Source: Lacibacter luteus
GTDB lineage: Bacteria; Bacteroidota; Bacteroidia; Chitinophagales; Chitinophagaceae
DNA length: 64,000 nucleotides
Reading direction: 5' to 3'
NCBI RefSeq assembly: GCF_004118265.1
Contig: NZ_SDHW01000007.1
Span: 124,001-188,000 of the forward strand
The notes beneath the pieces are model-generated. The model searched no databases. It was not told the origin of the DNA and worked only from the letters and a program-made list of their open reading frames with translations. Below are positions 9,483 through 57,168 of this stretch, one piece after another. Position numbers and translations under genes: made by a program. How positions within the stretch are numbered: position 1 is the stretch's first letter; each line of letters starts with the position of its first letter.

Positions 9483-9531
9483 GTTTACGGTTTATAGTTT
9501 GAGGTTTATGGTTAAGCGTTATGAGTTACGG
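9483..9531. repeat. Heptamer array, GTT-nnnn type
   Basis: Seven consecutive 7-base units all begin with GTT (GTTTACG, GTTTATA and so on to GTTACGG). The 15-base end GTTATGAGTTACGGG recurs inverted at about 45734-45748 in another array. It starts three bases after the lpxK stop. Confidence 0.8.
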
Positions 9532-9551
9532 GAAAGAAGCGGAGTTTTTAT

Positions 9552-9645
9552 CCCCTCTTGGGAGGGGCTGCAGGTTGTTACACAGGTGAACAATAGAAAG
9601 GGGTGGGTTCAAAACTTTTATCCGTCAGACGTCTTCGTTGGACGG
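9552..9645. repeat. Intergenic hairpins between lpxK and rnr
   Basis: A hairpin CCCCTC-TTGG-GAGGGG at 9552-9567 and a second, CCGTC..GACGG at 9622-9645, which contains the GTCAGACGTC word of the dispersed hairpin family. An 89-residue frame crosses this spacer but is built from repeats and is not considered a gene. Confidence 0.6.
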
Positions 9646-9715
9646 GAAATTATAGAAGCTACAGAAAAGCAAGACAATAAATCAGGTTTTCGTAGCAAAC
9701 AAAAAATGAAAAACA

Positions 9716-11788
9716 ATGAGTAAAAAAAATAAGTCAAAAGATTCTTCTTCAAAGAAGAAAAAACAACATAAAGCTCCTGCCGGTAAAACAAGGCAGAAGA
9801 GCAGCGCTGCGGGTGTACGTGGCGTTATTGAAATTACACGCAGTGGTATGGGTTATGTTACTGTACCCGATATGGAGCGTGATGTGATTGTACGTCCGCA
9901 ACATTTCAACACGGCATTGCATGGCGATACGGTTGAAGTACAGATCACCAAAAGTGGTGGAGGCGGCGGCCGTATGGAAGGCGAAATAACCCGAGTGGTA
10001 GAACGCAAACAAACACAATTCATCGGCCGCATCAGTATTCAAAAAAACTACAACTTCTTTATTCCGGAAACAGACAGGCCAATGCCCGATCTGTTTATTC
10101 CTGCAGAGAAGCTGAATGGCGCAACCAATAACGATAAAGTGGTGGCGAAACTAACGGCGTGGGATAAGGCCAAACGTGTACCCGAAGGTGAAGTGCTGGA
10201 GTTGGTAAAGCAGGAAGCAGAGAATGATATTGCCATGAAGCAGATCTTGTTATCGGCAGGTTTCAACTTAAGCTTTGACGATGAAGTGATGGAACAGGCC
10301 GAACGTTTTCCTGATGGTGTGAGTGCAGATGAAGTAAAGAAGCGAAGAGATTTTCGTGATGTGTTGACTTTTACAATCGATCCTGTTGATGCAAAAGATT
10401 TTGATGATGCACTGTCGATCAAAAAAGGAACAAATGGTTTGTACGAAATAGGTGTACATATTGCCGATGTGAGTCATTATGTAATACCGGGCACTGCATT
10501 GGATGATGAAGCGTATGCAAGAGCAACATCGGTGTACTTACCCGATCGTGTATCGCCCATGTTACCCGAACGTATTTCGAATGAGTTGTGTTCACTGCGT
10601 CCGAGAGAAGATAAGTACACGTTCTCGGCTGTGTTTAAAATAACGGGCAAAGGAGAAATTAAAGATGTGTGGCTGGGACGAACAGTGATCCATTCCGATC
10701 ATCGTTTTACCTACGAACAAGTGCAGGAAATTATTGAAGCCGGTGAAGGTTTGTATGGTGAAGAAATTCTGCTGCTGAACACGCTTGCACAAAAAATGCG
10801 GAAAGATCGTTTCAAAAAAGGAGCGATCAATTTCTCTTCGCAGGAAGTGCGTTTTGTATTGGATGAAAACCGCAAACCGATCGGCATTACCATTAAAGAA
10901 AGTAAAGAAGCACATCAGCTGATTGAAGAGTTTATGTTGCTGGCCAATAAACATGTTGCAGAATACATTGGTAAGATTGTGGTGAAGGATAAACCTGTTC
11001 CATTCCCCTATCGTGTACATGATACGCCTGATGAAGCAAAGCTTGGTCCGTTTATGGTGTTTGCGAAAAAGTATGGACATACATTCGATGTATCATCGCC
11101 ACAACGTATTGCTGAATCGTTTAACCAGATGCTGAAAGATGCGCAGGGCAAACCTGAGCAGCATGTGCTGGAAGCATTGGGTATCCGCACTATGGCGAAA
11201 GCGGTTTATACAGCAGAGAATATCGGTCACTATGGTTTAGGTTTTGAACATTACTGTCATTTTACTTCGCCAATCCGTCGTTACCCCGATGTGTTGGTGC
11301 ATCGTGTATTGCAGCAGTGTTTGGATAACGAGCCGCAGATCGATAAAAAAATGGAAGCCAAGTGTAAGCATTGCAGTGAGCGTGAACGTTCGGCCATGGA
11401 AAGCGAACGTGCTGCCAATAAATACAAACAGGTGGAATACATGAGCCAGTTCCTTGGCGAAGAGTTTGAAGGTGTGGTGAGTGGTGTTGCATCGTTCGGC
11501 TTTTGGGTGGAAACAGTGGAGCATAAATGCGAAGGGCTGGTGAGTTTGTTTTCGCTGAATGATTTTGATGATTTCAGACATATTGAAGAAGATTATTGTT
11601 TGGTGGGCAAACGCAGTGGTCGCACATTCCGCATGGGTGATAAGGTGACAATAAAAGTAGTGGCAGCGAACCTGGAAAAACGTCAGCTCGATTATGAGTT
11701 GGTGCTGGGGCATCTTGCTTCAACCGAAAACAAAGTGTTGCAGCCAACAAAGTTTCAGCATCCGAAGAAGAAGAGGGGGAAGAAGTGA
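9716..11788 (+). CDS. rnr: Ribonuclease R
   Basis: 690 residues. A lysine-rich head (1-30) is followed by cold-shock OB domains (about 35-175), the RNB catalytic domain and a C-terminal S1 domain (about 595-675). The catalytic block DPVDAKDFDDALS (222-234) has the acidic residues that hold the metal ions, and GVHIADVSHYV and FTSPIRRYPDVLVHR further support the family. The enzyme is a 3'-5' exoribonuclease that degrades structured RNA in the cytoplasm. The start is the first ATG with the basic head; no other in-frame choice keeps the OB domain. It stands alone between repeat-filled spacers. Confidence 0.95.
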   Translation: MSKKNKSKDSSSKKKKQHKAPAGKTRQKSSAAGVRGVIEITRSGMGYVTVPDMERDVIVRPQHFNTALHGDTVEVQITKSGGGGGRMEGEITRVVERKQTQFIGRISIQKNYNFFIPETDRPMPDLFIPAEKLNGATNNDKVVAKLTAWDKAKRVPEGEVLELVKQEAENDIAMKQILLSAGFNLSFDDEVMEQAERFPDGVSADEVKKRRDFRDVLTFTIDPVDAKDFDDALSIKKGTNGLYEIGVHIADVSHYVIPGTALDDEAYARATSVYLPDRVSPMLPERISNELCSLRPREDKYTFSAVFKITGKGEIKDVWLGRTVIHSDHRFTYEQVQEIIEAGEGLYGEEILLLNTLAQKMRKDRFKKGAINFSSQEVRFVLDENRKPIGITIKESKEAHQLIEEFMLLANKHVAEYIGKIVVKDKPVPFPYRVHDTPDEAKLGPFMVFAKKYGHTFDVSSPQRIAESFNQMLKDAQGKPEQHVLEALGIRTMAKAVYTAENIGHYGLGFEHYCHFTSPIRRYPDVLVHRVLQQCLDNEPQIDKKMEAKCKHCSERERSAMESERAANKYKQVEYMSQFLGEEFEGVVSGVASFGFWVETVEHKCEGLVSLFSLNDFDDFRHIEEDYCLVGKRSGRTFRMGDKVTIKVVAANLEKRQLDYELVLGHLASTENKVLQPTKFQHPKKKRGKK

Positions 11789-11843
11789 GGTAGGAGGTAA
11801 GAGGTAAGAAGTAAGAGGTAAGAGGTAAGAGGTAAGAGGTAGG
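11788..11843. repeat. Heptamer array, AGGTAAG type
   Basis: Eight units of consensus AGGTAAG, five of them identical and the outer ones AGGTAGG. It begins at the last base of the rnr stop codon. The same unit in inverted orientation lies beyond the next gene at 12254-12281, and related units lie inside trmN6. Confidence 0.95.
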
Positions 11844-11880
11844 ATGGTTCCTATAAAGTAGTCATCAAAAAACACCAGAT

Positions 11881-12237
11881 ATGCCAATTAAAACTTTTAC
11901 AGACCTTGATGTGTATAATCTTTCGCACGGATTAGCAATGGAAATTTTTCATCTGACAAGAAATTTCCCAGGTGAAGAAAAATACAGTTTAATTGATCAG
12001 GTGCGACGTTCTTCGAGGTCGGTTGCAGTGAACATAGCAGAAGGTTGGGGGAAGCGTGTCCCTGCTAATTTTAAACGACATCTTGTAGATTCAAATGGTT
12101 CGCTGGAAGAAACAAAGTCGTGGTTAATGTTCTCAAAAGATTGTGCTTATATTAATGACGATCAGTTTCAGTCACTCATAATAAAAACGGAAACGATAGG
12201 CGGTAAACTTTGGAAACTGCACGATAGCTGGACTTAA
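11881..12237 (+). CDS. Four-helix bundle protein (23S rRNA intervening-sequence protein family, TIGR02436)
   Basis: 118 residues, all helical. The family signature is clear: FTDLDVYNLSHGLAMEIFHL at the start, QVRRSSRSVAVNIAEGWGKR in the middle (residues 40-60) and SLEETKSWL after it. Family members form pentameric four-helix barrels; the best understood relative is Avd, an accessory of diversity-generating retroelement reverse transcriptases. Most copies in Bacteroidota have no known role. This one lies between conserved genes and is bracketed by heptamer arrays in inverted orientation, which suggests insertion as a unit. Confidence 0.9.
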   Translation: MPIKTFTDLDVYNLSHGLAMEIFHLTRNFPGEEKYSLIDQVRRSSRSVAVNIAEGWGKRVPANFKRHLVDSNGSLEETKSWLMFSKDCAYINDDQFQSLIIKTETIGGKLWKLHDSWT

Positions 12238-12253
12238 GTATCTTGCAGCCCGG

Positions 12254-12281
12254 TTCATACCTCTTACTTCTTACAACATAC
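12254..12281. repeat. Heptamer array, inverted partner (CTCTTAC type)
   Basis: Four units ending in TAC (for example CTCTTAC, TTCTTAC), the reverse complement of the GTAAGAG type at 11788-11843. It ends 12 bases before the start of the polyprenyl synthase gene. Confidence 0.75.
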
Positions 12282-12293
12282 TTCAAAGAAATT

Positions 12294-13256
12294 ATGCAGT
12301 CGTTCGAACAATTATTAAAGCAATTCGAAGAACATTTTAATAAACGATTATTTCCAAAGGAGCCGGCTTCGTTGTACGATGCGGCACAACATATCCTCAG
12401 CATTGGCGGTAAACGTGTACGTCCTGTTGCGGTATTGATGGGTAATGAGTTGTTTGATGACATCAAACCCGATGCATGGCAGGTAGCAACAGCCATTGAA
12501 CTGTTTCATAATTTTTCATTGATACATGATGATATTATGGATGAAGCGCCATTGCGGAGAGGTAAGCAAACGGTGCATGCCATTCATGGTATCAACACAG
12601 CCATTCTTGCCGGCGATGTAACCTTAACCATGTCGTACGATTACATTGGTAAAGTGGAAGGCGATGTAAAATCGATTCTTGCATTGTTCAATAAAACGGC
12701 ACTGGAAGTTTCCGAAGGTCAGCAGATGGATATGGACTTTGAAAAAAGAGAAACCGTAAGTCTTGCAGAGTACGTACGCATGATCGAATTAAAAACATCG
12801 GTGCTGCTGGCTGCAAGTTTAAAGCTGGGAGCTATGATCGGTGGTGCAAGCGTGGGCAATACGGAGCATATTTATGAGTTTGGCCGTAACCTTGGCATTG
12901 CATTCCAGGTGCAGGACGATTACCTCGATTGCTTTGGCGATCCTGCAAAGTTTGGTAAGCAGGTAGGTGGCGATATTAAAGCCAATAAGAAAACATTTTT
13001 GATGATCCATGCATTGGAAACAGCTTCGGCAGAACAGCAACAACAATTGAAGGCGTTGATGCAAAACAATCCTGCTGATAAAGTGGAGCAGGTGCTGGCT
13101 ATTTATAAATCTGCTGCTGTAGATGAGTGGGCCATGCAGCTGAAAAATCAATACTTCGAAAAAGCAATGAAGCATCTGGAAGACATTGCTGTGCTCAATA
13201 AACGCAAAATTGCATTGCAACAGTTGGCACAGTTTCTTGTACAACGTGAGTATTAA
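12294..13256 (+). CDS. Polyprenyl (trans-isoprenyl) diphosphate synthase
   Basis: 320 residues from the ATG at 12294; an upstream TTG at 12243 would add residues encoded by the heptamer array. Both aspartate-rich motifs are present: DDIMD at 79-83 and DDYLD at 208-212, with the GGKRVRP block at 38-44 for IPP binding. It condenses IPP with an allylic diphosphate to make a long-chain or C15-C20 prenyl diphosphate for quinones, carotenoids or the undecaprenyl route; chain length cannot be set safely by eye. Its end overlaps the convergent lipoprotein gene by 4 bases. Confidence 0.9.
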   Translation: MQSFEQLLKQFEEHFNKRLFPKEPASLYDAAQHILSIGGKRVRPVAVLMGNELFDDIKPDAWQVATAIELFHNFSLIHDDIMDEAPLRRGKQTVHAIHGINTAILAGDVTLTMSYDYIGKVEGDVKSILALFNKTALEVSEGQQMDMDFEKRETVSLAEYVRMIELKTSVLLAASLKLGAMIGGASVGNTEHIYEFGRNLGIAFQVQDDYLDCFGDPAKFGKQVGGDIKANKKTFLMIHALETASAEQQQQLKALMQNNPADKVEQVLAIYKSAAVDEWAMQLKNQYFEKAMKHLEDIAVLNKRKIALQQLAQFLVQREY

Positions 13257-28360: not shown

Positions 28361-29461
28361 TTATACGTTGAAGCGGAAATGCATTACATCGCCATCCTTT
28401 ACCATATATTCTTTACCTTCTATTCGCAGCTTACCATTGTCACGTGCAGCAGCTTCTGTTTTATAGGTTACATAATCGTCATAACCAATCACCTCAGCTT
28501 TAATAAAACCTTTTTCAAAATCGGTATGAATAACACCGGCACATTGTGGTGCTTTCCAGCCTTTGTGGAAAGTCCATGCACGAACTTCCTGCACACCTGC
28601 AGTAAAATAAGTTTGCAAGCCAAGTAAATGATATGTACTGTGGATCAAACGATCAAGTGCAGGCTCAGTCATTTTATATTCTTCCATGAACAAAGCTTTA
28701 TCGTCAGGCTCTTCCATTTCACTGATCTGTGCTTCAATGCTGTTGTTCATAATAATTACATCCGCATCTTCGTCTTTCACAGCATCCATCAGCGCCTGCG
28801 AATATTTATTACCGGTATGCATGCTGGCTTCATCAACATTCGCTACATACAATACTTTTTTACCTGTAAGGAAGAAGGAATCCTGAATAAGATCTAACTC
28901 TGCACTATTCAGATCCAGACCACGGATGCTTTTACCTTGTTCCAGATGGTTTTTACATTTCAGCAATACTTCCAGTTCGGTTTTTGCTTTTACATCACCG
29001 GCTTTAGCCTGTTTTTCGATACGTTGAATTTTCTTTTCAACCGTTTCAAGATCTTTCAGCTGTAATTCTGTATCAATAATTTCTTTATCGCCAACAGGAT
29101 TAATAGCACCTTCTTCACGCAATACATTCTCATCTTCAAAACAACGGATCACATGAATAATGGCATCCACTTCACGGATGTTGGCAAGGAATTTATTACC
29201 CAAACCTTCGCCTTTGCTGGCGCCTCTCACCAACCCGGCAATATCCACGATCTCGATTTGTGTAGGCACAATACGATCGGGCACTACCAGTTCGGCCAGC
29301 TTGTTTAAACGATTGTCCGGTACATCCACCAAACCCACGTTGGGTTCAATGGTGCAAAAACGATAGTTACTTGCCTGTGCTTTAGCGCTGTTACTTACGG
29401 CGTTGAATAAGGTCGACTTTCCAACGTTTGGTAAACCCACAATACCTGCTTTTAAACCCAT
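28361..29461 (-). CDS. ychF: YchF/OLA1-type translation-associated ATPase
   Basis: 366 residues from [17 protein letters not shown] at 29461; the longer frame reads back through a heptamer array. P-loop GLPNVGKST at 9-17, [20 protein letters not shown] for switch II, and NVDE in place of NKxD, the change that makes this Obg-family protein prefer ATP. A C-terminal TGS domain ends it ([14 protein letters not shown]). It associates with ribosomes and stress responses. It has its own promoter and terminator. Confidence 0.96.
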
Positions 29462-29530
29462 TGTTTGATTTATGATTTTTGATGTGTGATTTTTGATGTG
29501 TGTCTCACGGTTCACGACTAACGATTCACG
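29462..29530. repeat. Heptamer array, nnnnnTG/nnnnACG type
   Basis: About ten consecutive 7-base units, each ending in G: ATTTTTG and ATGTGTG alternate, then change to a TTCACG type. It abuts the ychF start codon and so forms the leader of the ychF mRNA. Confidence 0.8.
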
Positions 29531-29616: not shown

Positions 29617-29651
29617 AAAATCTGCAATCTTCAATCCGAAATCTAAAATTG
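29617..29651. repeat. Heptamer array, nnAATCT type
   Basis: Five 7-base units of the type GCAATCT, GAAATCT, ending four bases before the ATG of the SpmAB gene. Confidence 0.7.
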
Positions 29652-33826: not shown

Positions 33827-33839
33827 CAGGAACAAGAAC

Positions 33840-33874
33840 TTGAATGATGAGTAATGAATAATGAGAGGTGAACA
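33840..33874. repeat. Heptamer array, ATGAGTA type
   Basis: Five units with TGA in positions 2-4 (ATGAGTA, ATGAATA, ATGAGAG and others) between the deacetylase and the first micro-protein. Confidence 0.75.
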
Positions 33875-44644: not shown

Positions 44645-45553
44645 TCAGGCTTTTTTACCAAAGCCGGGGTGATATTGTTCCAATGTTTTCCGCAAAAACT
44701 CACGGTCGAGGTGCGTATAAATTTCTGTAGTTGTAATGCTTTCATGCCCCAGCATTTCCTGTACGGCACGCAAATCGGCTCCGCCTTCTACCAAATGGGT
44801 AGCAAAGGAATGACGGAAGGTGTGCGGCGAAATATTTTTTTCAATACCTGCTTTTTTTGCCAGCTCTTTAATAATAAGAAAGATCATTACTCTTGTTAAT
44901 TCATCGCCACGCCTGTTCAAAAAAACAATATCATCTTTCCCTTTTTTTGGCTGCACATGCACTCGGATATCTTTTACATAAATAGTGATGTATTTAACAG
45001 CGCTGCTGCCGATCGGCACTAAACGTTCTTTATCGCCTTTGCCAATTACACGTATAAAGCCAACATCAAGATAAAGGTTCGACAGTTTCAGATTCACTAC
45101 TTCGCTTACACGCAAACCACAGCTGTACATTGTTTCAAGTATGGCTTTGTTGCGGCCGCCTTCGGGTTTACTTAAGTCGATCTGGTTAATGATGGTTTCA
45201 ATTTCTTCATAACTCAATGTGTCGGGTAATGTACGTTTGAGCTTTGGTGCTTCAAGCAATGCTGTGGGATCGGTACTGCTTATCTGCTCCAGCAAACAGT
45301 ATTTATAAAACTGCCGTAAGCCCGAAATAATTCTTGCCTGGCTTCCTGCACTCATACCCAGCTCAGCGATCCATTTTACAAACTGTTGCAGATCTTTTAA
45401 CACCAACTCCGAAGGATTTCTAAGATCGTTGCTGCTTTGCAGGTATTGCGTAAGCATTTCAACATCGTGCAGGTAAGCTTCCACCGAGTTATCGCTCAGC
45501 GAACGTTCCAGTTGCAGGTAAGCTTTAAATCCTTTTTTATACGGGTCCCACAT
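44645..45553 (-). CDS. xerD: Tyrosine recombinase XerD
   Basis: 302 residues from MWDPYKKGFKAYL at 45553; an extension to 45664 has no homology. The SAM-like N-terminal DNA-binding domain (1-100) and catalytic domain contain YSCGLRVSEV (first Arg), HTFRHSFATHL (His-Arg), and GHESITTTEIYTH (His and nucleophile Tyr), in order. It resolves chromosome dimers at dif. Nothing suggests it is an integron or phage integrase. Confidence 0.95.
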   Translation of the reverse strand: MWDPYKKGFKAYLQLERSLSDNSVEAYLHDVEMLTQYLQSSNDLRNPSELVLKDLQQFVKWIAELGMSAGSQARIISGLRQFYKYCLLEQISSTDPTALLEAPKLKRTLPDTLSYEEIETIINQIDLSKPEGGRNKAILETMYSCGLRVSEVVNLKLSNLYLDVGFIRVIGKGDKERLVPIGSSAVKYITIYVKDIRVHVQPKKGKDDIVFLNRRGDELTRVMIFLIIKELAKKAGIEKNISPHTFRHSFATHLVEGGADLRAVQEMLGHESITTTEIYTHLDREFLRKTLEQYHPGFGKKA

Positions 45554-45582
45554 GAAGTAGCAGTAATTGAAGTTTGGAAGAT

Positions 45583-45666
45583 AAGAAGGAAGAAGGAACA
45601 AGGTACAAGGAACAGGGAAGAAAATCCAATATCCAGTATACAAGACAGAAGAAAGAAAATTCAATC
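45583..45666. repeat. Heptamer array, AAGAAGG type
   Basis: About twelve 7-base units in phase (AAGAAGG, AACAAGG, TACAAGG, TCCAGTA and relatives), mostly with A at unit position 4. It fills the spacer in front of xerD. Confidence 0.7.
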
Positions 45667-45724: not shown

Positions 45725-45774
45725 CTTTAACCCCGTAACTCATAACCTTTAACTTATAACTTTCTACCTGCAAC
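45725..45774. repeat. Heptamer array, nnnTAAC type
   Basis: Five in-phase units (for example TCATAAC, CTTTAAC, TTATAAC) plus one offset by a base. The part CCCGTAACTCATAAC is the reverse complement of the end of the array at 9483-9531. Confidence 0.7.
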
Positions 45775-45779
45775 AACAA

Positions 45780-45814
45780 TTCATCTCTCATTATTCATCA
45801 CTCATCATTATATT
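45780..45814. repeat. Heptamer array, nTCATnn type
   Basis: Four to five units (TTCATCT, CTCATTA, TTCATCA, CTCATCA), the reverse-complement sense of the ATGAGTA type. Confidence 0.75.
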
Positions 45815-46354: not shown

Positions 46355-46360
46355 GAAGAA

Positions 46361-46395
46361 TAGTTTTTAGTTTATGGTTTGTAGTTTATAGTTGC
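46361..46395. repeat. Heptamer array, TAGTTTA type
   Basis: Five units (TAGTTTT, TAGTTTA, TGGTTTG, TAGTTTA, TAGTTGC) 7 bases after the YkgJ-like gene. Confidence 0.8.
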
Positions 46396-47044: not shown

Positions 47045-48631
47045 TTACTTATGAATCTCACTTGTAAAATGAAACTCAATATCCGGATTGTTCTGACGTT
47101 CGGTATTGAGGAACCATTCGCTTTGTGCGAGGTACACTAAATGCCCGTCTTTATCTGCTGCAATATTGTTTGTTTTAAAACGTGTAAACTCATCCAGCTT
47201 TTTTTGATCCTCACTGGTTATCCAGCAGGCTTTGTAATAAGGCATTGAGCGGAACTCTGCACTGGCGCCGTATTCCTGCAACAAACGGTATTGAATAACT
47301 TCAAACTGGAGTTCGCCCACACAACCGATAATTTTTTTGTTACCGCCAAACTGGGTAAACAATTGCGCCACACCTTCATCGGTTAGCTGCAGCAAACCTT
47401 TTTCCAGCTGTTTGGTCTTCATCGGGTCTTTGTTCACCACTTCCTTAAACAATTCAGGAGAGAACGATGGGATACCTGTGAAATAAAAATCTTCGCCTTC
47501 GGTTATGGTATCACCGATTTTAAAGTTACCCGTATCGAACAAACCAACTACATCACCCGGGAAAGCTTCTTCAATCACATCTTTCTGGCGGGCCATAAAC
47601 GAGTAGGGGTTACTAAAACGTACATCCTTATCTAAACGCACATGATGATAGTACTTATTCCGTTCAAACCTTCCGCTGCAAACACGTAAAAAAGCAATAC
47701 GGTCTCTGTGTTTAGGATCGAGGTTAGCGTGAATTTTAAATACAAATCCGCTGAATTTATCTTCCTGCACATCGAGGTGACGGATTGATGTTTCCCTGCT
47801 TTGCGGCAAAGGAGCAATGCGGATAAATGTATCGAGCATTTCTTTTACACCAAAGTTGTTAACGGCACTGCCGAAAAATACAGGTGCAATTTTCCCTTTG
47901 AGGTATTGCTCAACATCCAGATCACCATAAACACCATCTACCAGTTCTACATCATCACGCAATGTGTTTGCATCAGCTTCACCTACTTTTTCATCGAGTA
48001 TGTTGTTCGAAAGATCTTTGATCTCAACTACATCTTCATCACTTGCTTTTGTATTGGCCGTAAACAGTACGAGTGATTTTTTATCTAAATCGTAAACACC
48101 TTTAAAATCTTTACCGCTGTTAATGGGCCATGTCATCGGGTGGAGGTGAAGGCTGAGCTCTTTTTCCACTTCTTCCAAAAGGTCGAAACGGTTCTTGCCA
48201 TCACGGTCCATTTTGTTGATGAAAACAATTACCGGTGTATCACGCATGCGGCAGACTTCCATTAAACGGCGTGTCTGATCTTCCACACCGTTCACACTGT
48301 CGATAACAAGGATAACACTATCCACAGCAGTTAATGTGCGGTAGGTATCTTCAGCAAAATCTTTGTGACCGGGAGTATCGAGCAGGTTGATCAATGTGCC
48401 GTTGTATTCAAACGTCATTACCGAAGTGGCAACCGAGATGCCACGCTGCCGTTCAATTTCCATGAAATCGCTGGTTGCGTGCTTTTTGATCTTGTTGCTT
48501 TTTACGGCACCTGCTACCTGGATGGCGCCACCAAACAAGAGCAACTTTTCGGTAAGCGTTGTTTTACCCGCATCGGGGTGCGAGATGATGGCGAATGTGC
48601 GTCGGCGATTGATTTCGTTTGTAAACTTCAT
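47045..48631 (-). CDS. prfC: Peptide chain release factor 3
   Basis: 528 residues, full length. GTPase motifs: [20 protein letters not shown] (G1, 18-37), [14 protein letters not shown] (G2), DTPGHKDF (G3) and NKMDRDGKN (G4). RF3 removes RF1/RF2 from the ribosome after peptide release. Domains II and III follow in usual order. It is a single-gene unit with a heptamer array in its leader and an exact -7 box. Confidence 0.97.
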
Positions 48632-48636
48632 GATTT

Positions 48637-48664
48637 AGTTCATTGTTCATGGTTGATGGTTCAT
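48637..48664. repeat. Heptamer array, GGTTCAT type
   Basis: Four units (AGTTCAT, TGTTCAT, GGTTGAT, GGTTCAT) within the prfC leader, six bases before the prfC start. Confidence 0.75.
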
Positions 48665-48717
48665 AGCAGCAGCAGCCATGAACGATGATCTATCAACTAT
48701 GCGCTTTTTCAAGCCCG

Positions 48718-48792: not shown

Positions 48793-50040
48793 ATGCGTAA
48801 AACCTTCGAAATCTTCTGGAACAGCCTGTTGTTTGCCACACAGGAATTGCGGAAAAATAAGCTCCGTACTTTTTTGAGTTTGTTGGGGATTACGTTTGGC
48901 ATTTTTTGCATCATCAGCGTAATGGCAACGGTGGGCAGCCTCGAGAGCAGCATTAAAAGCGAATTTAAATCGTTTGGCAACAATACGGTTTATGTTCAGA
49001 AATGGCCCTGGGGCGGCGGTGGCGAATACCCTTGGTGGAAATATGTAAGCCGGCCTAATACAAAGTTCAAAGAAATGCCTCCTGTTAAGCAACGGATGTC
49101 GCTGGCCGCTAATGTAGCATACACCTATTTTAATGCTTCTACTATTGATTATAAAGATGTATCGCTTTCTACTGTAAACTGGTATGGTGTAACAGAAGAG
49201 TTTAACGAAATACAGCCGGTTGAAATGGGCTCGGGCCGCTACCTTTCTAACAACGAATTTGCTTATGGCACAGCCAGTGTTGTTATGGGTTATAATGTTG
49301 CTGAAAAATTATTTGAGAAAGCTGAATATGCTGTTGGTAAAACAGTAGACATTAAAGGACGTAAAGTGAATGTGGTGGGTGTAATTAAAAAGCAGGGACA
49401 AAACCTGTTAGGCGGTTGGGATTTTGATAACGTAATTATTATTCCTTACCGTTTTGCCAGTCAGATTGGTAATGAAGCAAGAAGCGATGGATTTATGTTG
49501 GTGAAGGGAAGGGAAAATGTACCTGTGGAAGATATGAAAAACGAATTGCGTGGTGTAATGCGCAGTGTACGTAAGCTTAACCCTAAACAGGAAGATAATT
49601 TTGCATTGAATGATGTTAGCACAGGTGCAACACAGATCACTTCCATTTTTACAGGTATGACCATCGGTGGTATCTGCATTACCATTCTTTCGTTTATTGT
49701 AGGCATTTTTGGTGTTGCCAACATTATGTTTGTAACTGTTCGTGAACGTACAAGCATCATCGGTTTAAAGAAAGCCATTGGTGCGAAACGCAGAACTATA
49801 CTTGCCGAATTTTTAATGGAAAGTGCATTTCTCTGTATACTTGGCGGTATTATTGGTTTAGTGATGGTGTTTGGGTTAACGTTCATTTTATCTGCAGCAT
49901 TTAAGTTCAAAGTATTTATTTCAATAGGTCTCTTTCTCGGCGCAGTAATGGTTTGTATACTTACCGGAATTCTCGCAGGTATTATTCCGGCTTTTATTGC
50001 GGCAAAAATGGATCCTGTAGTAGCGATACGAAGCAAATAA
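48793..50040 (+). CDS. MacB/FtsX-type ABC transporter permease
   Basis: 415 residues: one N-terminal membrane span after KLRTFLSLLGITFGIFCIIS (28-47), a periplasmic MacB core domain (about 60-270) and three C-terminal spans of the FtsX fold with VRERTSIIGLKKAIGAKRRT (about 315-334). Such permeases use ATP hydrolysis by a partner to act on lipoproteins, peptides or toxins in the periplasm. No ATPase gene adjoins it, so the partner is encoded elsewhere. Confidence 0.9.
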   Translation: MRKTFEIFWNSLLFATQELRKNKLRTFLSLLGITFGIFCIISVMATVGSLESSIKSEFKSFGNNTVYVQKWPWGGGGEYPWWKYVSRPNTKFKEMPPVKQRMSLAANVAYTYFNASTIDYKDVSLSTVNWYGVTEEFNEIQPVEMGSGRYLSNNEFAYGTASVVMGYNVAEKLFEKAEYAVGKTVDIKGRKVNVVGVIKKQGQNLLGGWDFDNVIIIPYRFASQIGNEARSDGFMLVKGRENVPVEDMKNELRGVMRSVRKLNPKQEDNFALNDVSTGATQITSIFTGMTIGGICITILSFIVGIFGVANIMFVTVRERTSIIGLKKAIGAKRRTILAEFLMESAFLCILGGIIGLVMVFGLTFILSAAFKFKVFISIGLFLGAVMVCILTGILAGIIPAFIAAKMDPVVAIRSK

Positions 50041-50041
50041 T

Positions 50042-50125
50042 ATGAGTGATGAGTAATGAATGATGAATCGGCAGGTTGCTGTATTTTTACATTTCTCATT
50101 TTTCATTTTTAATTTTTAATTTCCG
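50042..50125. repeat. Two heptamer arrays, ATGAGTA type and ATTTTTA type
   Basis: Four units (ATGAGTG, ATGAGTA, ATGAATG, ATGAATC) at 50042-50069, and five units (ATTTCTC, ATTTTTC, ATTTTTA twice, ATTTCCG) at 50091-50125, the last ending two bases before the tsaD start. Confidence 0.8.
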
Positions 50126-50127
50126 TT

Positions 50128-51168
50128 TTGATCACCATTCTCGCCATCGAATCTTCCTGCGACGAAACTTCAGCATCCGTTTGTCGTAACGGTGTTATTC
50201 TTTCTAATGTAATTGCAACACAGGCTGTACATGAACAGTTTGGTGGGGTTGTACCAGAGTTGGCAAGCCGTGCACACATGGAGAATATTGTACCCGTGGT
50301 TGACAAAGCGTTAAAAGAAGCAGGCGTGGAAATGAATGAGCTGAGTGCAATTGCGTTTACGCAGGCTCCCGGTTTAATCGGTTCGTTACTCGTGGGCGTA
50401 CAGTTTGCAAAATCGTTGGCACTGGCGTTGAATATACCGCTGATAGCTGTGCATCATATGCAGGCGCATGTACTGGCCAATTTAATTCCGCAAGAAAAAC
50501 CTTCGTTCCCTTTTTTGTGTTTAACAGTTAGTGGCGGACATACGCAAATTGTATTGTGCGAAACGGCTACACAAATGAAAGTACTTGGCGAAACCATTGA
50601 CGATGCGGCTGGTGAAGCGTTTGATAAAACAGCAAAGTTGTTGGGGCTTCCGTATCCCGGAGGTCCGCTGATTGATAAGTATGCACAGCTGGGTAATGCT
50701 GATCGGTTTAAATTTCCCGAGCCACAGATACCCGAACTCAACTTTAGTTTTAGCGGATTAAAAACATCCATTCTTTATTTTTTACGCAATGCAGGAACGA
50801 GTCTTGTGTACAAAGAAGAGTTCCTTGCAAGCGAAGAAGAACAGCAAAAATTTATTGCAGAGAACCTCAATGATATTTGTGCATCTGTTCAACAACGCAT
50901 CGTTTCTATTTTGCTCAACAAGTTAAAAAAAGCAGTGAAGCAAACAGGTGTGCAACAAATTTGTCTGGCTGGCGGTGTAAGTGCCAATAGTGGTTTGCGA
51001 AAAGCTTTTGCTGAGCTGGGCGAGAAGCACCATTGGAAAACATTTATTCCTTCGTTTGAATATTGTACCGATAATGCCGGCATGATTGCTATTACTGCTT
51101 ATCATAAATATCTTGCCGGCGATTTTGTATCACTTGCAGTGCAGCCAAGTGCAAGGGCTGAATGGTAA
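50128..51168 (+). CDS. tsaD: tRNA N6-adenosine threonylcarbamoyltransferase TsaD
   Basis: 346 residues. The start is a TTG at 50128 (reading ILAIESSCDETSASV directly after it), since no ATG exists before this conserved block. Iron-ligand histidines are in HHMQAHV (about 111-117), and SGGHTQIVLCE and AGGVSANSGLR complete the ASKHA-type kinase/transferase motifs. It transfers threonylcarbamoyl to A37 of ANN-reading tRNAs with TsaB/TsaE. Its untranslated leader is made of heptamer arrays. Confidence 0.95.
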   Translation: MITILAIESSCDETSASVCRNGVILSNVIATQAVHEQFGGVVPELASRAHMENIVPVVDKALKEAGVEMNELSAIAFTQAPGLIGSLLVGVQFAKSLALALNIPLIAVHHMQAHVLANLIPQEKPSFPFLCLTVSGGHTQIVLCETATQMKVLGETIDDAAGEAFDKTAKLLGLPYPGGPLIDKYAQLGNADRFKFPEPQIPELNFSFSGLKTSILYFLRNAGTSLVYKEEFLASEEEQQKFIAENLNDICASVQQRIVSILLNKLKKAVKQTGVQQICLAGGVSANSGLRKAFAELGEKHHWKTFIPSFEYCTDNAGMIAITAYHKYLAGDFVSLAVQPSARAEW

Positions 51169-51178: not shown

Positions 51179-51250
51179 GTTAGTCGATAGTAATTAGCCG
51201 CAAGTAATCCTCATCATTCATTACTCATTATTCATCACTCATTGTTCATG
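51179..51250. repeat. Two heptamer arrays ending in the trmN6 start codon
   Basis: Four units of nnTAGnn type (GATAGTA, ATTAGCC and others, 51179-51206) and six units of nTTCATn/ACTCATT type (51209-51250). The final unit GTTCATG supplies the ATG at 51248. Confidence 0.8.
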
Positions 51251-51988
51251 CCCAATAATTATTTTCAATTCAAACAGTTTAAGATACAGCAGGAGAGAGC
51301 TGCGTTGAAAGTAAGCACCGATAGCTGTTTGTTTGGAGCGTGGGTGGCGGAAGAAGTACGAGGTAAGAAGTACGAGGTACGATCTGCGGCAGCACCATTC
51401 ACTATTCTTGATATTGGCGCAGGCACAGGGTTACTCATGCTGATGTTGGCGCAGAAGTGTAATGCAGCAATCGATGGAATTGAAATTGATGAGCCATCAT
51501 ATTTGCAGGCGAAAGAAAATAGTGAAGCATCAAGATGGAAGGAACGATTGCAGTTGTTTCACGCAGATGTAAAGCAATTCAGCTTTTCACATAAGTATGA
51601 ATTCATCATTTCCAACCCGCCTTTTTACGAAGGCGATTTAAAGTCGGATGCTGTAAACCGAAATGTAGCAATGCATGATGCAGGGTTGAAGCTGGATGAA
51701 TTGATAGCCATCGTTGCAAACAACTTAACCAACAATGGTTGTTTTGCTGTATTGCTTCCATATGCACGTGCAGCGTATATGATTGAATTGGCCGCTGCAG
51801 CAAATCTTCATCTGCAAAAACATGTACAGGTAAAGCAAAGCGTAAAGCATGGCTTTTTCCGTTCAATGTTGTTGTTTACCCCAATAAAAACTGAACCTGT
51901 TGTGGAAGAGCTTGCCATTAAAGATGCAAACAACGAATACACAACTGCGTTTGTAAGTTTGTTGGGAGATTATTATTTGTATTTGTAG
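51248..51988 (+). CDS. trmN6: tRNA1(Val) A37 N6-methyltransferase-like (TrmN6/YfiC)
   Basis: 246 residues from the ATG at 51248. AdoMet motif ILDIGAGTGLLMLML at 53-67 and catalytic NPPFY at 123-127 identify the YfiC/TrmN6 group, which methylates N6 of adenine 37 in tRNA1(Val). Residues about 34-50 (between FGAWVA and motif I) are encoded by a 28-base AAGTACG/AGGTAAG heptamer array and have no counterpart in usual family members, which go from GAW almost directly to motif I. The N-terminal KVSTDSCLFGAW is normal. Confidence 0.88.
   Translation: MPNNYFQFKQFKIQQERAALKVSTDSCLFGAWVAEEVRGKKYEVRSAAAPFTILDIGAGTGLLMLMLAQKCNAAIDGIEIDEPSYLQAKENSEASRWKERLQLFHADVKQFSFSHKYEFIISNPPFYEGDLKSDAVNRNVAMHDAGLKLDELIAIVANNLTNNGCFAVLLPYARAAYMIELAAAANLHLQKHVQVKQSVKHGFFRSMLLFTPIKTEPVVEELAIKDANNEYTTAFVSLLGDYYLYL
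51354..51381 (+). repeat. Heptamer array inside the trmN6 coding sequence
   Basis: Four units (AAGTACG, AGGTAAG, AAGTACG, AGGTACG), the same family as the array at 11788-11843. It codes for a Lys/Arg/Glu/Val/Tyr-rich insert before the AdoMet motif. Confidence 0.85.
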
Positions 51989-52011: not shown

Positions 52012-52046
52012 TTTCGCACTTCTAATTTCGTACCTCGTACTTGCTA
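52012..52046. repeat. Heptamer array, TTTCGTA type
   Basis: Five units (TTTCGCA, CTTCTAA, TTTCGTA, CCTCGTA, CTTGCTA). CGTACCTCGTACTT is the reverse complement of units inside trmN6. A small hairpin CCGTCAGACGG lies just before it at 51994-52004. Confidence 0.75.
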
Positions 52047-53474: not shown

Positions 53475-53484
53475 CATTTTTTTT

Positions 53485-53516
53485 CCCGTCTTCGTTAATG
53501 AAGGCGGGTTTTTATT
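53485..53516 (+). terminator. Terminator after tRNA-Leu
   Basis: CCCGTCTTC-GTTAAT-GAAGGCGGG (one G-T pair) and a T run. Confidence 0.93.
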
Positions 53517-53754
53517 TTCAGGATGTGATTTTTTGCTGATTGGCTTTTCTCATGTGAAGCACAGCAAACATCTTCTCCTTTGTCATCTTCCTCTCATTTA
53601 TTGGTTATGCACATACTGTAACAAGTTTTAACGAAATATCCATTTGTTGAACCTGTACCTTTGTAAGCCAATCGTTCGGTCAACAGCTGTTAAAACCCCT
53701 TGCTGAGCGAACAATTTCGTCTTTCGTTTTTTATTATTACGTAAATCAATCACC

Positions 53755-54045
53755 ATGCGAAAAGGAATTGCCGAAGCACGCAGTGCAACTATTGAGTTTA
53801 ACAAGAAGAATCTGGATCAGTTACAAAGCAAAGGTTACAAGTTTGTGCAGATCAAAGGACTTACGGTTGACAAGCATTACGATTATGTTGAACCGCATTT
53901 TTTGGTATTGGTGCCAATGAAAGAATTGCCGACGGATCCTTTTAAGCGTGACATTTATGAACCACTTGGCAGCGATCTTCTAAACCAATGGGCTACAGAA
54001 AAAAACGAATACCCCGAGATCGTTATTGCCAATAACCTCAACTGA
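53755..54045 (+). CDS. Hypothetical protein
   Basis: 96 residues, soluble, beta/alpha mix, starting MRKGIAEARSATIEFN. No family recognised. The stop is two bases before the next ATG, so it is coupled to the SRPBCC gene. A TACCTTTG -7 box at 53656-53663 matches consensus and gives a leader of about 85 bases. Confidence 0.6.
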   Translation: MRKGIAEARSATIEFNKKNLDQLQSKGYKFVQIKGLTVDKHYDYVEPHFLVLVPMKELPTDPFKRDIYEPLGSDLLNQWATEKNEYPEIVIANNLN

Positions 54046-54047
54046 GC

Positions 54048-54554
54048 ATGGCTACATACTCCCTGAAGACTGTACAATATATTCCTGTTGATATTGATAC
54101 AGCGTGGGATTTTTTTTCCAATCCCAATAATCTCCAGGCGATAACTCCCAAAAACATGGGTTTTAAAGTTTTGTCGAAACACACAACAGCTAAAATGTAT
54201 GCAGGGCAAATCATTGAATATCATGTGAGCCCGGTATTAGGTATTAAGCTGTATTGGATGACGGAAATAACACATGTAAAAGAAAAAGAGTTCTTTGTTG
54301 ATGAGCAACGGTTCGGCCCTTATCAATTATGGCATCATCAGCATCATTTTAAAGTTGTAGATGGAGGTGTAGAAATGACGGATATTGTTCATTATCGAAA
54401 TCCACTTGGCTTTTTGGGCAATATTGCAAACTGCTTGTTTGTACGAAAACAGTTGAAACAGATTTTCGAATTCCGCTTTAAAGCAGTGGAAGAGCTTTTT
54501 GGTAAGTGGCATGAATCTGTTCTTACAAGAATAGAATTTTTCAAGGCCGCATAA
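54048..54554 (+). CDS. SRPBCC (START-like) ligand-binding protein
   Basis: 168 residues. The start VQYIPVDIDTAWDFFSNPNNLQAITPKNMGF is the helix-grip entry of the polyketide cyclase/SRPBCC superfamily, and DIVHYRNPLGFLGNIANCLF lies near the C-terminal helix. Members bind hydrophobic ligands. The ligand is unknown. It is the second gene of a two-gene unit. Confidence 0.85.
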   Translation: MATYSLKTVQYIPVDIDTAWDFFSNPNNLQAITPKNMGFKVLSKHTTAKMYAGQIIEYHVSPVLGIKLYWMTEITHVKEKEFFVDEQRFGPYQLWHHQHHFKVVDGGVEMTDIVHYRNPLGFLGNIANCLFVRKQLKQIFEFRFKAVEELFGKWHESVLTRIEFFKAA

Positions 54555-54658
54555 TATTATCCCGGAAATCAGTACCTGCGGTTATTTACTTTTATATAAG
54601 TAACATACTTCAGTCTTTTTAAGATAGGATATGATCTAATTTGTTTATGTAAAGAATA

Positions 54659-55075
54659 TTATTTCAATGCTTTAATATCCATTGTCCACGCATATGGCCC
54701 AGTGGTTCGGTGTTCTACACTAAGCAATAGGGTATTATCTGTTAACGTGCCTACAATTTTAGTTGGAGCGAAGCCTCCCATAGGTGCAGGCACATATTGC
54801 AACTTGTCTCCCGAAACAGAAACTTCTTTATAAACGAAGTCTTGCATGCCTAAGTTACTAATAGTTATTTTAACGGTATTACGGGAGCCGGCGTGCTCAA
54901 TGGTAATCTTGGATTCTGATAAGACTGTGTCCTTGATTGCACTTGAAGAGTCTCGAAGAAAGTATTTTGTACTTCCTTTGTAAACTCCAGTCATTTTTTT
55001 TGCATAATCTTTTTTACATGCTATAAATATTAACGAAAGAGTAAGCAAAAGAAATGCTTTGAAGAAGTGTTGCAT
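54659..55075 (-). CDS. Hypothetical lipoprotein
   Basis: 138 residues with signal peptide and lipobox ending IFIAC (Cys at about 20) followed by KKDYAKKMTGVYKGS. The rest is beta-rich and similar in character to small lipocalin-like lipoproteins of Bacteroidota, but no family is assigned. Isolated gene. Confidence 0.7.
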   Translation of the reverse strand: MQHFFKAFLLLTLSLIFIACKKDYAKKMTGVYKGSTKYFLRDSSSAIKDTVLSESKITIEHAGSRNTVKITISNLGMQDFVYKEVSVSGDKLQYVPAPMGGFAPTKIVGTLTDNTLLLSVEHRTTGPYAWTMDIKALK

Positions 55076-55491
55076 AAGTTTAAGTGTTTTTGCATTGGCA
55101 ATTTATTTATTTTTTTTGAAGGACAGCTGTTTGTTTTTTACAACTGCATTAAAAATCAGACAAATCAAGCTTAACAAGAAACTTAGTGGTTTTATTCGGT
55201 GACTTGTTGATTACCGGTAATGTCATTAGTAAATATTGGCATTGCTTTTTAATTTAAGAGAGCAGCAAGAGGTAAACTGTAAAGTAACAATACCTTTTCT
55301 TAATTTGTAGTGCAATAATTCATTGCATTTGAGCAGATATAGATAAACTGTGGGTTGACTGATTGCTAACGACCTAAATACAATTTGGCCTGTGTATTGA
55401 TCGAATTATCAATTGAATAAATTACATGGTTTATTCTTTTCGCTTTTAAAGGCTGATTTTCAGGATTGTCAAATTAAATAAATATTAAAGT
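55076..55491. other. AT-rich spacer of 416 bases
   Basis: No convincing frame, RNA or repeat array; only a 12-bp palindrome ATTACCGGTAAT at 55210-55221. It probably holds the promoters of the divergent lipoprotein and sirtuin genes. Confidence 0.6.
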
Positions 55492-56184
55492 TTGAGCAAA
55501 AAGAAACTCGTTGTATTAACAGGTGCAGGCATCAGTGCAGAAAGTGGTTTGCGCACTTTTCGTGATGGTGATGGTTTGTGGGAAGGTTACCAGATAGAAG
55601 AAGTTGCCACTCCACGTGCATGGCAAAGAAATCCGCAACTAGTGTTGGATTTTTATAATTACAGAAGGAGAGATGTAGCAGCTGCACAACCCAACGCAGC
55701 ACATTATGGTTTGGCCGAATTGGAAAACGATTTTGATGTAACCATCATTACACAAAATATCGATGACCTGCATGAGCGTGCCGGCTCAAGCAATATTCTT
55801 CATTTACATGGTGAGATTTTTAAAATACGCAGCGAACGTGATGAAGAATTGATCTACGGGATCAAAGGCGATATAAAGCTGGGCGATGTAGCAGAAGATG
55901 GAGCGCAACTTCGTCCGTATATTGTTTGGTTTGAAGAAGCAGTGCCGATGATCGAAATAGCATTGCAAATTGTGCATGAAGCTGATGTTTTTGCAGTGGT
56001 TGGCACATCGCTGGTTGTTTACCCTGCAGCAGGATTAGTAACGGTAGCCGATGATAAAATACCGAAGTTTATTGTTGATAAAAAGATACCTTATACATCT
56101 TCGGTATACAATGTAACAGCCATTGAAAAACCGGCAACAGAAGGCGTAAAGGAGTTAAGGGAATTATTGTTGCAATTGAAATAA
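55492..56184 (+). CDS. cobB: Cys-free sirtuin, NAD-dependent protein deacylase
   Basis: 230 residues; the start is TTG at 55492. NAD-binding GAGISAESGLRTFRDGDGLW (11-30), TQNIDDLHERAGSSNILHLHG (92-112) with the catalytic His, and VVGTSLVVYPAAG are in place. YNYRRR at 55-60 keeps the Tyr and Arg that favour succinyl-lysine and malonyl-lysine. The zinc-binding Cys tetrad of ordinary CobB is missing: the protein has no Cys at all, a form also common in Bacteroidota. A bidirectional terminator follows. Confidence 0.9.
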   Translation: MSKKKLVVLTGAGISAESGLRTFRDGDGLWEGYQIEEVATPRAWQRNPQLVLDFYNYRRRDVAAAQPNAAHYGLAELENDFDVTIITQNIDDLHERAGSSNILHLHGEIFKIRSERDEELIYGIKGDIKLGDVAEDGAQLRPYIVWFEEAVPMIEIALQIVHEADVFAVVGTSLVVYPAAGLVTVADDKIPKFIVDKKIPYTSSVYNVTAIEKPATEGVKELRELLLQLK

Positions 56185-56224
56185 ATGACTTGCCTCAGGC
56201 TTAAGCCAAGGGCAAGTCATAAGC

Positions 56225-56255
56225 AAAAAAGCTGTTCCTTTTGGAACAGCTTTTC
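56225..56255. terminator. Bidirectional terminator between cobB and fsa
   Basis: AAAAAAGCTGTTCC-TTTT-GGAACAGCTTTT hairpin serves both converging genes. A second hairpin, ATGACTTGCC..GGCAAGTCAT, precedes it at 56185-56220. Confidence 0.9.
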
Positions 56256-56274
56256 TTATTTGGAAAGAATTCAA

Positions 56275-56928
56275 TTATTGAAACTTCTTTGCATCTTCTA
56301 AAAACTGCGCCAAACCAATATCGGTTAACGGATGCTTTAATAAACCTGTAATTGAACTTAAAGGACAGGTACAAACATGTGCACCGGCTTCTGCAGCCTG
56401 TACAATGTGTAATGGAGTACGGATTGATGCAGCCAGAATTTCTGTTTCAAAACCCTGCAGTGAATAAATATTTGCAATCTGACTGATGAGTTCCATACCA
56501 TCCCAGCAGCTGTCATCAATACGACCGATAAAAGGAGAAACATATGTTGCACCGGCTTTTGCAGCAAGAATCGCTTGTCCTGCGCTGAATACCAGTGTGC
56601 AGTTTGTTTTAATACCGTTATCGCTGAACCATTTCAGGGCTTTGATGCCGTCTTTGATCATTGGCACTTTTACCACAATGTTCGGATGAATGGCAGCCAG
56701 CTTTTTACCTTCTTCCACGATGCCATCAAAATCGGTGCTGATCACTTCTGCACTGATGTCGCCATCTACCATTTCGCAAATGGTTTTGTAATGCTGCATA
56801 ACAGCTTCAGTTCCTTTAATGCCAACTTTGGCCATTAACGAAGGGTTAGTAGTAACACCATCGAGAATACCTAATTCATTCGCTTCCTTAATTTGAGAAA
56901 GGTCTGCTGTGTCAATGAAAAATTTCAT
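56275..56928 (-). CDS. fsa: Fructose-6-phosphate aldolase/transaldolase-like protein
   Basis: 217 residues, the short TalC/FSA form. [21 protein letters not shown] is the family start; NIVVKVPM near 84-91 holds the Schiff-base Lys; [19 protein letters not shown] and SPFIGRIDD follow. It catalyses transfer or cleavage of dihydroxyacetone units in the pentose phosphate pathway. Which of the two activities dominates cannot be decided by eye. Confidence 0.93.
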
Positions 56929-57003
56929 GATAAACGTTTGATTGTTTTGAAGATGAAAAATAATAATGGCTTGTAAGGGTCATCTTCAACAGAAAATAAA
57001 AAA

Positions 57004-57102
57004 ATGGCAGGTTACTTACATCGCACCGCTACAACCGCCTACCCTTGCTGCGTTCCCACCCTGGGGGAGTTCAGCAGGAGCTGGTCGTGCAAGACCTGCC
57101 GC
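57004..57102 (-). ncRNA. ffs: Signal recognition particle RNA (4.5S type)
   Basis: On the minus strand the conserved apical domain is present: GAACTCCCCCAGGGTGGGAA, then CGCAGCAAGGGTAGGCGG, within a long hairpin closed by GGCAGGT at the start and ACCTGCC at the end. About 99 bases, the short bacterial form. It binds Ffh and directs membrane proteins to the translocon. An exact -7 box lies just upstream. Confidence 0.95.
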
Positions 57103-57104
57103 CG

Positions 57105-57112
57105 CAAAGATA
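57105..57112 (-). promoter_or_regulatory. -7 box of the SRP RNA gene
   Basis: TATCTTTG on the minus strand, followed within about 8 bases by the RNA start. A weak ATTG lies about 22 bases further upstream as -33 element. Confidence 0.7.
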
Positions 57113-57126
57113 GGGGAATGCAGGTG

Positions 57127-57168
57127 AACTAATGCAATGAGCAATGAAAAATGTAGAATGAAAAAACA
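57127..57168. repeat. Heptamer array, nnAATGn type
   Basis: Six units (GCAATGA twice, AAAATGT, AGAATGA and relatives) upstream of the SRP RNA promoter. Confidence 0.65.

Follow-up and report, generated by a model that had tools for sequence, protein, structure and literature searches.

What maintains, in the spacers of a bacterial chromosome, arrays of seven-base units that hold strict phase while the unit itself changes from one site to the next? The question arose from a stretch of 64,000 nucleotides of Lacibacter luteus (contig NZ_SDHW01000007.1, positions 124,001 to 188,000; hereafter the window), in which a first inspection, here called the sequence-only reading, had picked out such arrays between genes. 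We propose that they are probably the arms, and the remains of arms, of elements resembling the intervening sequences (IVS) of 23S rRNA, in which inverted arrays enclose a gene of the IVP/S23p protein family, and that they include derivatives devoid of that gene.

The arrays themselves are beyond chance expectation. The source genome measures 5.07 Mb on 28 contigs, of which we scanned the window and 20 further stretches, 464 kb in all with about 35 kb intergenic; gene calls throughout follow a simple longest-open-reading-frame (ORF) rule, on which the split into genic and intergenic DNA rests. Requiring at least 16 of 21 bases to be equal at a given lag, 27 segments were found at lag 7 (19 intergenic and 8 mostly genic), against a Markov mean of 1.3. 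The same run test gave 17 segments at lag 14 and 13 at lag 21, while every other lag between 2 and 20 gave 0 to 9 (9 at lag 3; 1, 7, 4 and 4 at lags 5, 6, 8 and 9), so that the anticipated excess of period 7 over its neighbours was borne out. This run test is the informative one, because raw intergenic autocorrelation, with a z of 4.7 at lag 7, is also raised at lag 3 (9.1) and lag 4 (5.1). Within the window, a scan at 15 of 21 or better returned 18 segments, and Tandem Repeats Finder (score 30) listed rows of period 7 or 14 at 9483, 11787, 29464, 29619, 33841, 45586, 45736 and 45779, then at 46360, 48638, 50042, 50083, 51210, 51351 and 57143, with two more at 744 and 39811, recovering the arrays named by the sequence-only reading. 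The inverted block which that reading saw shared between the arrays near 9483 and 45734 is exact over 15 bases (GTTATGAGTTACGGG at 9518 against CCCGTAACTCATAAC at 45732). Its statement that the arrays lie between genes fails for the array at 51353-51383, which sits inside a methyltransferase ORF. The segment it placed at 29617 does yield a repeat row at 29619; positions 29619-29649 are nevertheless nearly identical in three of four congeners, which sets them apart from most other arrays, and may be of another kind, perhaps coding or a bound site.

A complete element occupies positions 11787-12285, between the genes for RNase R and a polyprenyl synthetase (coordinates of this and all other window features are given in Table 1). 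Its two arms are unequal, with about 8 units in one and 4 in the other, and match each other in inverted orientation with a score of 20; the right arm overlaps the next ORF, the polyprenyl synthetase, as called from a TTG at 12243. Relatives of the enclosed protein with solved structures are 2gsc (E 1.4e-10) and 2rld (E 0.0084). Throughout the genome PF05635 marks seven loci (eight matches, two of them being one gene broken by a stop codon), all of which lie between inverted arrays by eye and six of which do so by score. The arm units of these resident elements, GTTCATR, AGGTAAG, TAATTGAT, GTTTATR, ATGAGTR, GTGAGTC and AGTACGA, are alike within an element and different between elements. The other six loci lie between genes that we take to be etfB/etfA, hemH/hemJ-like, ubiA-like/ruvX, outer-membrane channel/purE, ATPase/recQ-like and phosphatase/thiL-like. 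All seven resident IVP genes are read in the same direction as both neighbours, as are 121 of 142 loci in the wider sample, compared with 49-55% for other genes. No overlap with an rRNA family at gathering score was found at the seven resident loci, 3.3 kb each, whose neighbours are protein genes. Two details of these loci deserve mention in their own right: the 3' arm at positions 1878-1925 of locus L014 encodes the start of the purE-like frame as called, and a thiamine pyrophosphate riboswitch lies at 2463-2554 of locus L015, downstream of the hemJ-like gene.

The association extends well beyond this genome. Of 148 genomes sampled from the phylum, 116 have IVP/S23p genes, and the loci compared below are the best-scoring matches, at most 30 (80) per search. 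In the source genome, matched inverted arms with a score of at least 13 enclose the IVP gene at 6 of 7 loci; the figures are 22 of 25 for the family's other genera, 14 of 29 for the phylum and 54 of 78 for the named set. Arms taken from mismatched elements match in 1 of 42, 56 of 600, 45 of 812 and 77 of 1560, respectively. Four short family loci and one locus with a run of N are left out of these counts, and the named count leaves out L229 and L243 from 80; L126 (genome G047) and L206 (JAKPSI010000060.1), the latter from a metagenome bin titled Bacteroidota bacterium, are the same IVP element (identity 1.00), so that the family and named sets are not fully independent. On a milder score, arms of at least 14 were found within the genus at 25 of 27 loci, a 28th being too short to use. 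None of 29 RNase R flanks and 5 of 159 short non-IVP genes (4/114 and 1/45) gave a comparable result. Loci titled outside Bacteroidota also carry arms, with scores of 25 (L235, Ignavibacteriae), 22 (L279, Lambdaproteobacteria), 16 (L282, Desulfosarcina), 15 (L284, Clostridia) and 13 (L274, Peregrinibacteria), while L276 (KSB1, 12) and L283 (SAR324, 9) fall under the cut; all of these are metagenome bins whose taxonomy rests on record titles.

The sequence of the unit tracks the lineage of the enclosed protein. Over the 122 elements with an arm score of at least 14, IVP identity is correlated with the 4-mer similarity of the arms (Mantel r 0.394, p 0.0005), and arm similarity rises from about 0.18 at an IVP identity below 40% to 0.80 above 80%. 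The relation is found between elements with non-homologous neighbours, whose arm similarity is 0.431 at an identity of at least 60% (143 pairs) against 0.213 below 50% (5248 pairs), a comparison in which the partial protein of L262 inflates its own identities. The length of the unit also follows the protein. Of 116 elements with a z of at least 3, 92 have a best period of 7 and 20 a best period of 8, and on the IVP tree, built from few columns and with many open forks, period 8 takes 10 changes against 18.9 in shuffles, none of 500 being as low. One clade of 11 proteins (support 99) is entirely of period 8 and mixes Flavobacterium-titled loci with KSB1- and Lambdaproteobacteria-titled ones. 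The related IVPs of L252, L265 and L280 have arms of mixed units of 8 or 9 bases, so that one-base shifts in the length of the unit may occur in the family.

Many arrays pair in inverted orientation, mostly with the same polarity. In the window and 40 further stretches, 864 kb altogether, 47 arrays were found at 16 of 21 or better; 17 of them have an inverted partner (score of at least 14, within 1.3 kb), compared with one having a direct partner and one matched in the flank of another array. The loops between paired arms run from a few bases to more than 1 kb. The G-rich arm comes first, on the 5' side, in 94 of 105 IVP elements and the order is reversed in 6. The same polarity recurs in the short-loop hairpins with an array arm, 23 of which were collected from the scanned samples of the source genome, its congeners and the IVP-rich genomes: the G-rich arm leads in 20, the order is the opposite in 2, and 1 shows neither; the polarity is independent of the strand that is read. 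A test for mirror order of the variant units in the two arms gave, over 73 elements, an identity of 0.811 at register 0 and 0.685-0.69 after a shift of one unit; since that register is by choice the one with the highest identity, the difference supports the copying of whole arms weakly. One arm at locus L070 of genome G008 has about 28 units of ACCTCATACCTCTT, 2.0-2.2 kb upstream of the start of the 3' flank, and is far longer than its partner of about 5 units.

Most arrays outside IVP elements resemble the arms of a resident one. Compared with the seven resident arm types, 45 such arrays have a mean best cosine of 0.530, against 0.300 +- 0.032 for seven arms drawn at random from other genomes, and none of 5000 draws reached 0.530. 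At a cosine of at least 0.4, 27 of the 45 match a resident arm, compared with 21-24% for random sets. When arrays unmatched or below the cut were set against IVP arms of congeners, 8 of 13 typed arrays reached 0.45 or more, the ATTTATG types remaining below. The arrays also tend to accompany the gene across genomes: within the same family, 400 kb from 10 IVP-rich genomes contained 28 lag-7 arrays and 342 kb from 9 genomes without IVP contained 3 (Mann-Whitney p 0.015, by genome).

At orthologous sites the elements are patchily distributed. At the RNase R site, L. luteus, G003 and G008 have an IVP with AGGTAAG-like arms, G001 also has an IVP, but its upstream arm scores below the cut, G009 has in place of the IVP a short hairpin built of GATGTAT/ATTTCTG units, and G013, G002 and G006 have sequence that by eye resembles the 3' end of the element. 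An IVP is present between etfB and etfA in L. luteus, G009, G013 and G008 among 13 genomes, between hemH and hemJ in L. luteus, G002 and G011 among 10, and between ubiA and ruvX in L. luteus, G009, G010 and G001 among 14, of which G004, G005 and G007 are poorly comparable. The units of arrays at orthologous spacers differ between species, which answers the question of complete conservation raised by the sequence-only reading in favour of turnover. The IVP itself is under purifying selection: the ratio of nonsynonymous to synonymous substitution rates (dN/dS) is 0.02-0.24 in the 12 of 21 orthologous pairs with a computable dS, several of them with a dS above 1 (the other 9 are saturated), and 0.05 for the window protein compared with G003 (dS 1.10). 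The protein is therefore kept while the arms change fast. Two findings suggest movement: occupation of the sites is patchy, and arms remain with their protein in different neighbourhoods. Comparing array regions with one another within the genome sample gave 96 hits, none of them clearly a whole hairpin copied recently. Matches confined to arrays reach 97% over 34 nucleotides and 100% over 27; 35 of the 96 extend at least 15 nucleotides past an array, with an identity of 80-85% in the best two, and several do so only owing to a second array adjoining. As a side observation, the ubiA-ruvX spacers of L344 and L346-L349, which have no IVP, carry another inverted repeat (CGTCACCTCGACGCAGGAGAGGTCTC... 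and similar), reminiscent of the CGTC-tagged palindromes of PMC3733652.

From these results a working model can be drawn. A complete element would consist of a G-rich, C-poor 5' arm of several 7-base units, an IVP gene that shares the direction of the surrounding operon and, as its 3' arm, an inverted copy of the first. Each IVP lineage would have its own unit, usually of 7 bases and of 8 in one clade, and the gene-less arrays resembling resident arms (about 60% of those compared) would be truncated or degraded forms of those types. The solved IVP protein of Xanthomonas is reported to form a homopentameric ring (PMC4990558). A unit length fixed by the protein lineage would fit such a ring meeting a repeated unit in register, and the mechanism that we think most likely is recognition of the unit by the ring on folded or cruciform arm DNA, which would protect, copy or move the element. 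Units would multiply and shrink by slippage, and the simpler reading of the likeness between the two arms is that each is copied from the other at the DNA level. In a wider form, IVP/S23p proteins would be the unit readers of an unrecognised class of mobile elements ending in arrays, with a lineage-specific unit of 7 or 8 bases, movement of arm, gene and arm together, and gene-less hairpins seeded along the way. We put this wider form forward tentatively, its chances being in our view a little short of even.

Other explanations account for part of these observations. Replication slippage alone, acting without a partner protein as in the short tandem repeats (STRRs) of cyanobacteria, would produce an exact period with changing units and the excess at lag 7 and its multiples; the variable number of units, both between the arms of the window element and in the long arm of L070, and the arrays unpaired at the cut also suit it. 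It yields, however, neither inverted pairs nor a G-rich 5' arm nor units that track a neighbouring protein gene, and for these reasons we reject it as the whole story and consider it improbable. The interpretation in the sequence-only reading is partly supported: the phase-locked degenerate arrays do form a real class that turns over between species, but slippage by itself leaves the picture incomplete. A different possibility is that the arms pair in the operon transcript with the IVP frame in the loop, to be cut by RNase III as in the 23S rRNA IVS, the IVP-less hairpins being RNA-processing or insulating elements. The co-directional setting of the IVP genes, arms that abut stop and start codons, and the excision of the Coxiella burnetii IVS by RNase III, reported in PMC4990558, all argue for such a device. 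A helix kept as RNA should tolerate G-U pairs, yet arm mismatches in the 122 elements comprise 140 G-U and 162 A-C, and those of the short hairpins 24 G-U (G-T) and 17 A-C, which is not decisive. RNA pairing is therefore not a visible constraint keeping the arms alike; the G-U test could have supported selection on it and did not. The hairpin at 48634, furthermore, lies between divergent genes. An RNA device appears unlikely, if by no means far-fetched.

Two further readings carry little weight with us. Sites for a host regulator or a nucleoid protein, as proposed for TAACTGA repeats in the control of translation, would agree with arrays that often abut start codons, and TAACTGA repeats stand upstream of start codons in PMC4679880. 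In the present case, units vary from site to site, change from one species to another and track the adjacent IVP, and a tandem TAACTGA pair was found neither in the window with up to 2 mismatches nor, as an exact match, in 355 loci; this makes host binding sites scarcely credible. An enzyme of telomerase or reverse-transcriptase type that writes arms onto DNA ends would explain why the G-rich strand points inward on both sides, and the polarity of 94 to 6 and units that are degenerate yet phase-locked speak for it. Against this, the single RVT_1 gene and the single Y1_Tnp gene of the genome are not near an IVP and have no arrays within about 1.5 kb, and the base composition of the arms could equally give the polarity. 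We regard end writing as very improbable.

Several observations weigh against our proposal that the arrays derive from IVS-like elements. No arms were found at the cut in 24 of the 78 loci of the named set or in 15 of the 29 from the phylum, and the loci compared are best-scoring matches, not a random draw. Among the arrays, 30 of 47 have no inverted partner at the cut, 18 of the 45 outside IVP elements have no resident match at 0.4, and array pairs bracket ordinary genes too (tsaD, the methyltransferase). In the family comparison, 3 of the 10 IVP-rich genomes showed no array in 40 kb, every IVP-rich stretch came from an IVP-bearing contig, and the IVP-rich genomes had more segments at lags 6, 8 and 9 as well (8, 7, 7 against 2, 2, 1). 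Whatever the level of identity, pairs of elements in the same context have more similar arms (0.634 at 60% or more, 0.331 below 50%), and a shared site therefore contributes part of the correlation between unit and protein; outer flanks, 420-700 bases outside the IVP gene, correlate weakly as well (r 0.15, p 0.007). As for mobility, neither target duplication nor a clean empty site was seen at the IVP sites compared, IVP-less orthologous spacers often holding other hairpins; hairpins of the same type share arms but mostly not loops, and we know of no catalytic site in IVP. The sampling bias towards IVP-rich contigs and the shared-site effect make us slightly less confident of the IVS-like reading, which we still hold to be probable.

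Table 1. Arrays and associated features of the window (positions within the 64,000 nucleotides; G numbers are congeners, L numbers loci, cosines refer to resident IVP arm types).
Feature	Position	Strand	Remarks
Array GTTTATR turning into GTTATGA/GTTACGG	9480..9530	+	between gene 8403-9479 and RNase R
5' G-rich arm of IVP element	11787..11841	+	about 8 units AGGTAAG, directly after RNase R stop codon
IVP gene (PF05635, 23S_rRNA_IVP)	11881..12237	+	118 aa, four-helix bundle, PF05635 E 2.4e-32
3' C-rich arm of IVP element	12254..12285	+	CTTACCTC/CTTACTTC units
Array ATTTTTG/ATGTGTG	29461..29502	+	no good resident IVP arm match (0.35)
Array ATGAGTA	33837..33864	+	related units in G009; absent in G002, G006
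Array AAGGAAC and continuation	45578..45657	+	overlaps 5' end of integrase ORF 44645-45664 as called
Array TAACTCATAACCTTTAAC	45732..45763	+	first 15 bases are the reverse complement of 9518-9532
Array ATTCATC/CTCATTA, C-rich sense	45780..45809	+	adjoins 45732-45763; absent in G009
Array AGTTTAT	46360..46393	+	L014 type, cosine 0.57; no local partner at cut
5' arm of IVP-less hairpin	48634..48667	+	units GTTCATR; L011 type, cosine 0.93
3' arm of the 48634 hairpin	48670..48692	+	inverted score 15, gap 2
Array ATGAGTR	50040..50070	+	L015 type, cosine 0.82
C-rich array ATTTTTA/ATTTTTC	50083..50129	+	opposite 50040-50070
C-rich array	51210..51243	+	inverted partner of 50040-50070, score 21, across tsaD; L015 type, cosine 0.85
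Array GAAGTAC/GAGGTAC	51353..51383	+	inside methyltransferase ORF; L017 type, cosine 0.78
Inverted partner of 51353-51383	52014..52042	+	score 17; just past methyltransferase stop codon
Array AATGAAA/GCAATGA, degenerate	57132..57165	+	

The surroundings of some of these arrays can be specified. The hairpin at 48634-48692 separates the genes 47045-48631 (release factor 3) and 48793-50040 (MacB/FtsX), and in congener G009 the two halves of the 50040-50129 spacer form a hairpin of AAATGA/TCATTT units (L091, 7638-7725). The array at 51210-51243 adjoins the start codon of the methyltransferase ORF, 51248-51988, which matches MTS (PF05175) and is presumably TrmN6-like. Within this frame the array at 51353-51383 is translated as EEVRGKKYEVRS; related peptide inserts (EVRS.KYEVRS) occur in G009, G002 and G013, with a further THHSPL stretch, and a shorter one in G006. 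The 9480 spacer holds no array in congeners G009, G002, G006 and G013. Beside the array at 57132, the minus strand at about 56980-57110 has the look of a candidate gene for a small signal recognition particle RNA.

If the proposed relationship is correct, these elements would provide the first candidate partner sequence for a large protein family of no known function and would link intergenic heptamer repeats with the intervening sequences of 23S rRNA. With many IVP lineages, each having a readable cognate unit, they would put a natural code on offer. Some of the turnover of spacers in these genomes would be accounted for as well, and caution is called for before such hairpins are taken for regulators. 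A search among open-access PMC papers found no report tying IVP genes outside rRNA to array arms.

Comparison with known systems helps to place the arrays. Cyanobacterial STRRs share the heptanucleotide period, and to our knowledge have no association with IVP. Avd, the accessory protein of diversity-generating retroelements, is a four-helix bundle like IVP; the window protein scores 24.9 bits against its family (bAvd, PF22296), below the cut-off of 40, and the only RVT_1 gene of the genome is not near an IVP locus, the closest one on its contig being about 51 kb away. The sequence-only reading knew of no description of heptanucleotide tandem repeats in this lineage; intergenic direct repeats of the heptamer TAACTGA had already been published for some Bacteroidetes (MacGregor 2015, PMC4679880), long sets of them standing beside other heptamers in G. 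forsetii and A. sublithincola. Those repeats have one fixed unit and, in the sections consulted, no described inverted pairing with an IVP gene, whereas the arrays studied here change unit; the missing tandem pairs noted above set the present arrays apart from the TAACTGA class.

The 23S rRNA IVS of Leptospira, Coxiella and others are described in PMC4990558 as selfish elements with S23p and a 28-bp terminal stem. They share with the present elements an ORF of the IVP/S23p family, terminal inverted repeats and a patchy distribution, and C. burnetii has tandem heptamers, GACAGAT in varying number, upstream of the S23p start (PMC4990558). Unlike them, the elements described here lie in protein-gene spacers, have arms of degenerate unit arrays and a unit that follows the IVP lineage, and are accompanied by many IVP-less copies; the C. 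burnetii S23p ORF is described as undergoing reductive evolution, in contrast to the purifying selection found on IVP here. IVP belongs to PF05635 and is not an HUH tyrosine transposase, and no lag-7 array lies closer than about 1.5 kb to the lone Y1_Tnp (PF01797) gene, which sets the elements apart from RAYTs proper. By analogy, the nearest logic would nonetheless be that of REPIN/RAYT systems, for which PMC3116915 and PMC3733652 describe hairpin-forming inverted doublets, several gene-tied types per genome and gene-less copies; their counterparts here are the 23 gene-less short-loop hairpins and the 27 of 45 outside arrays that match a resident IVP arm.

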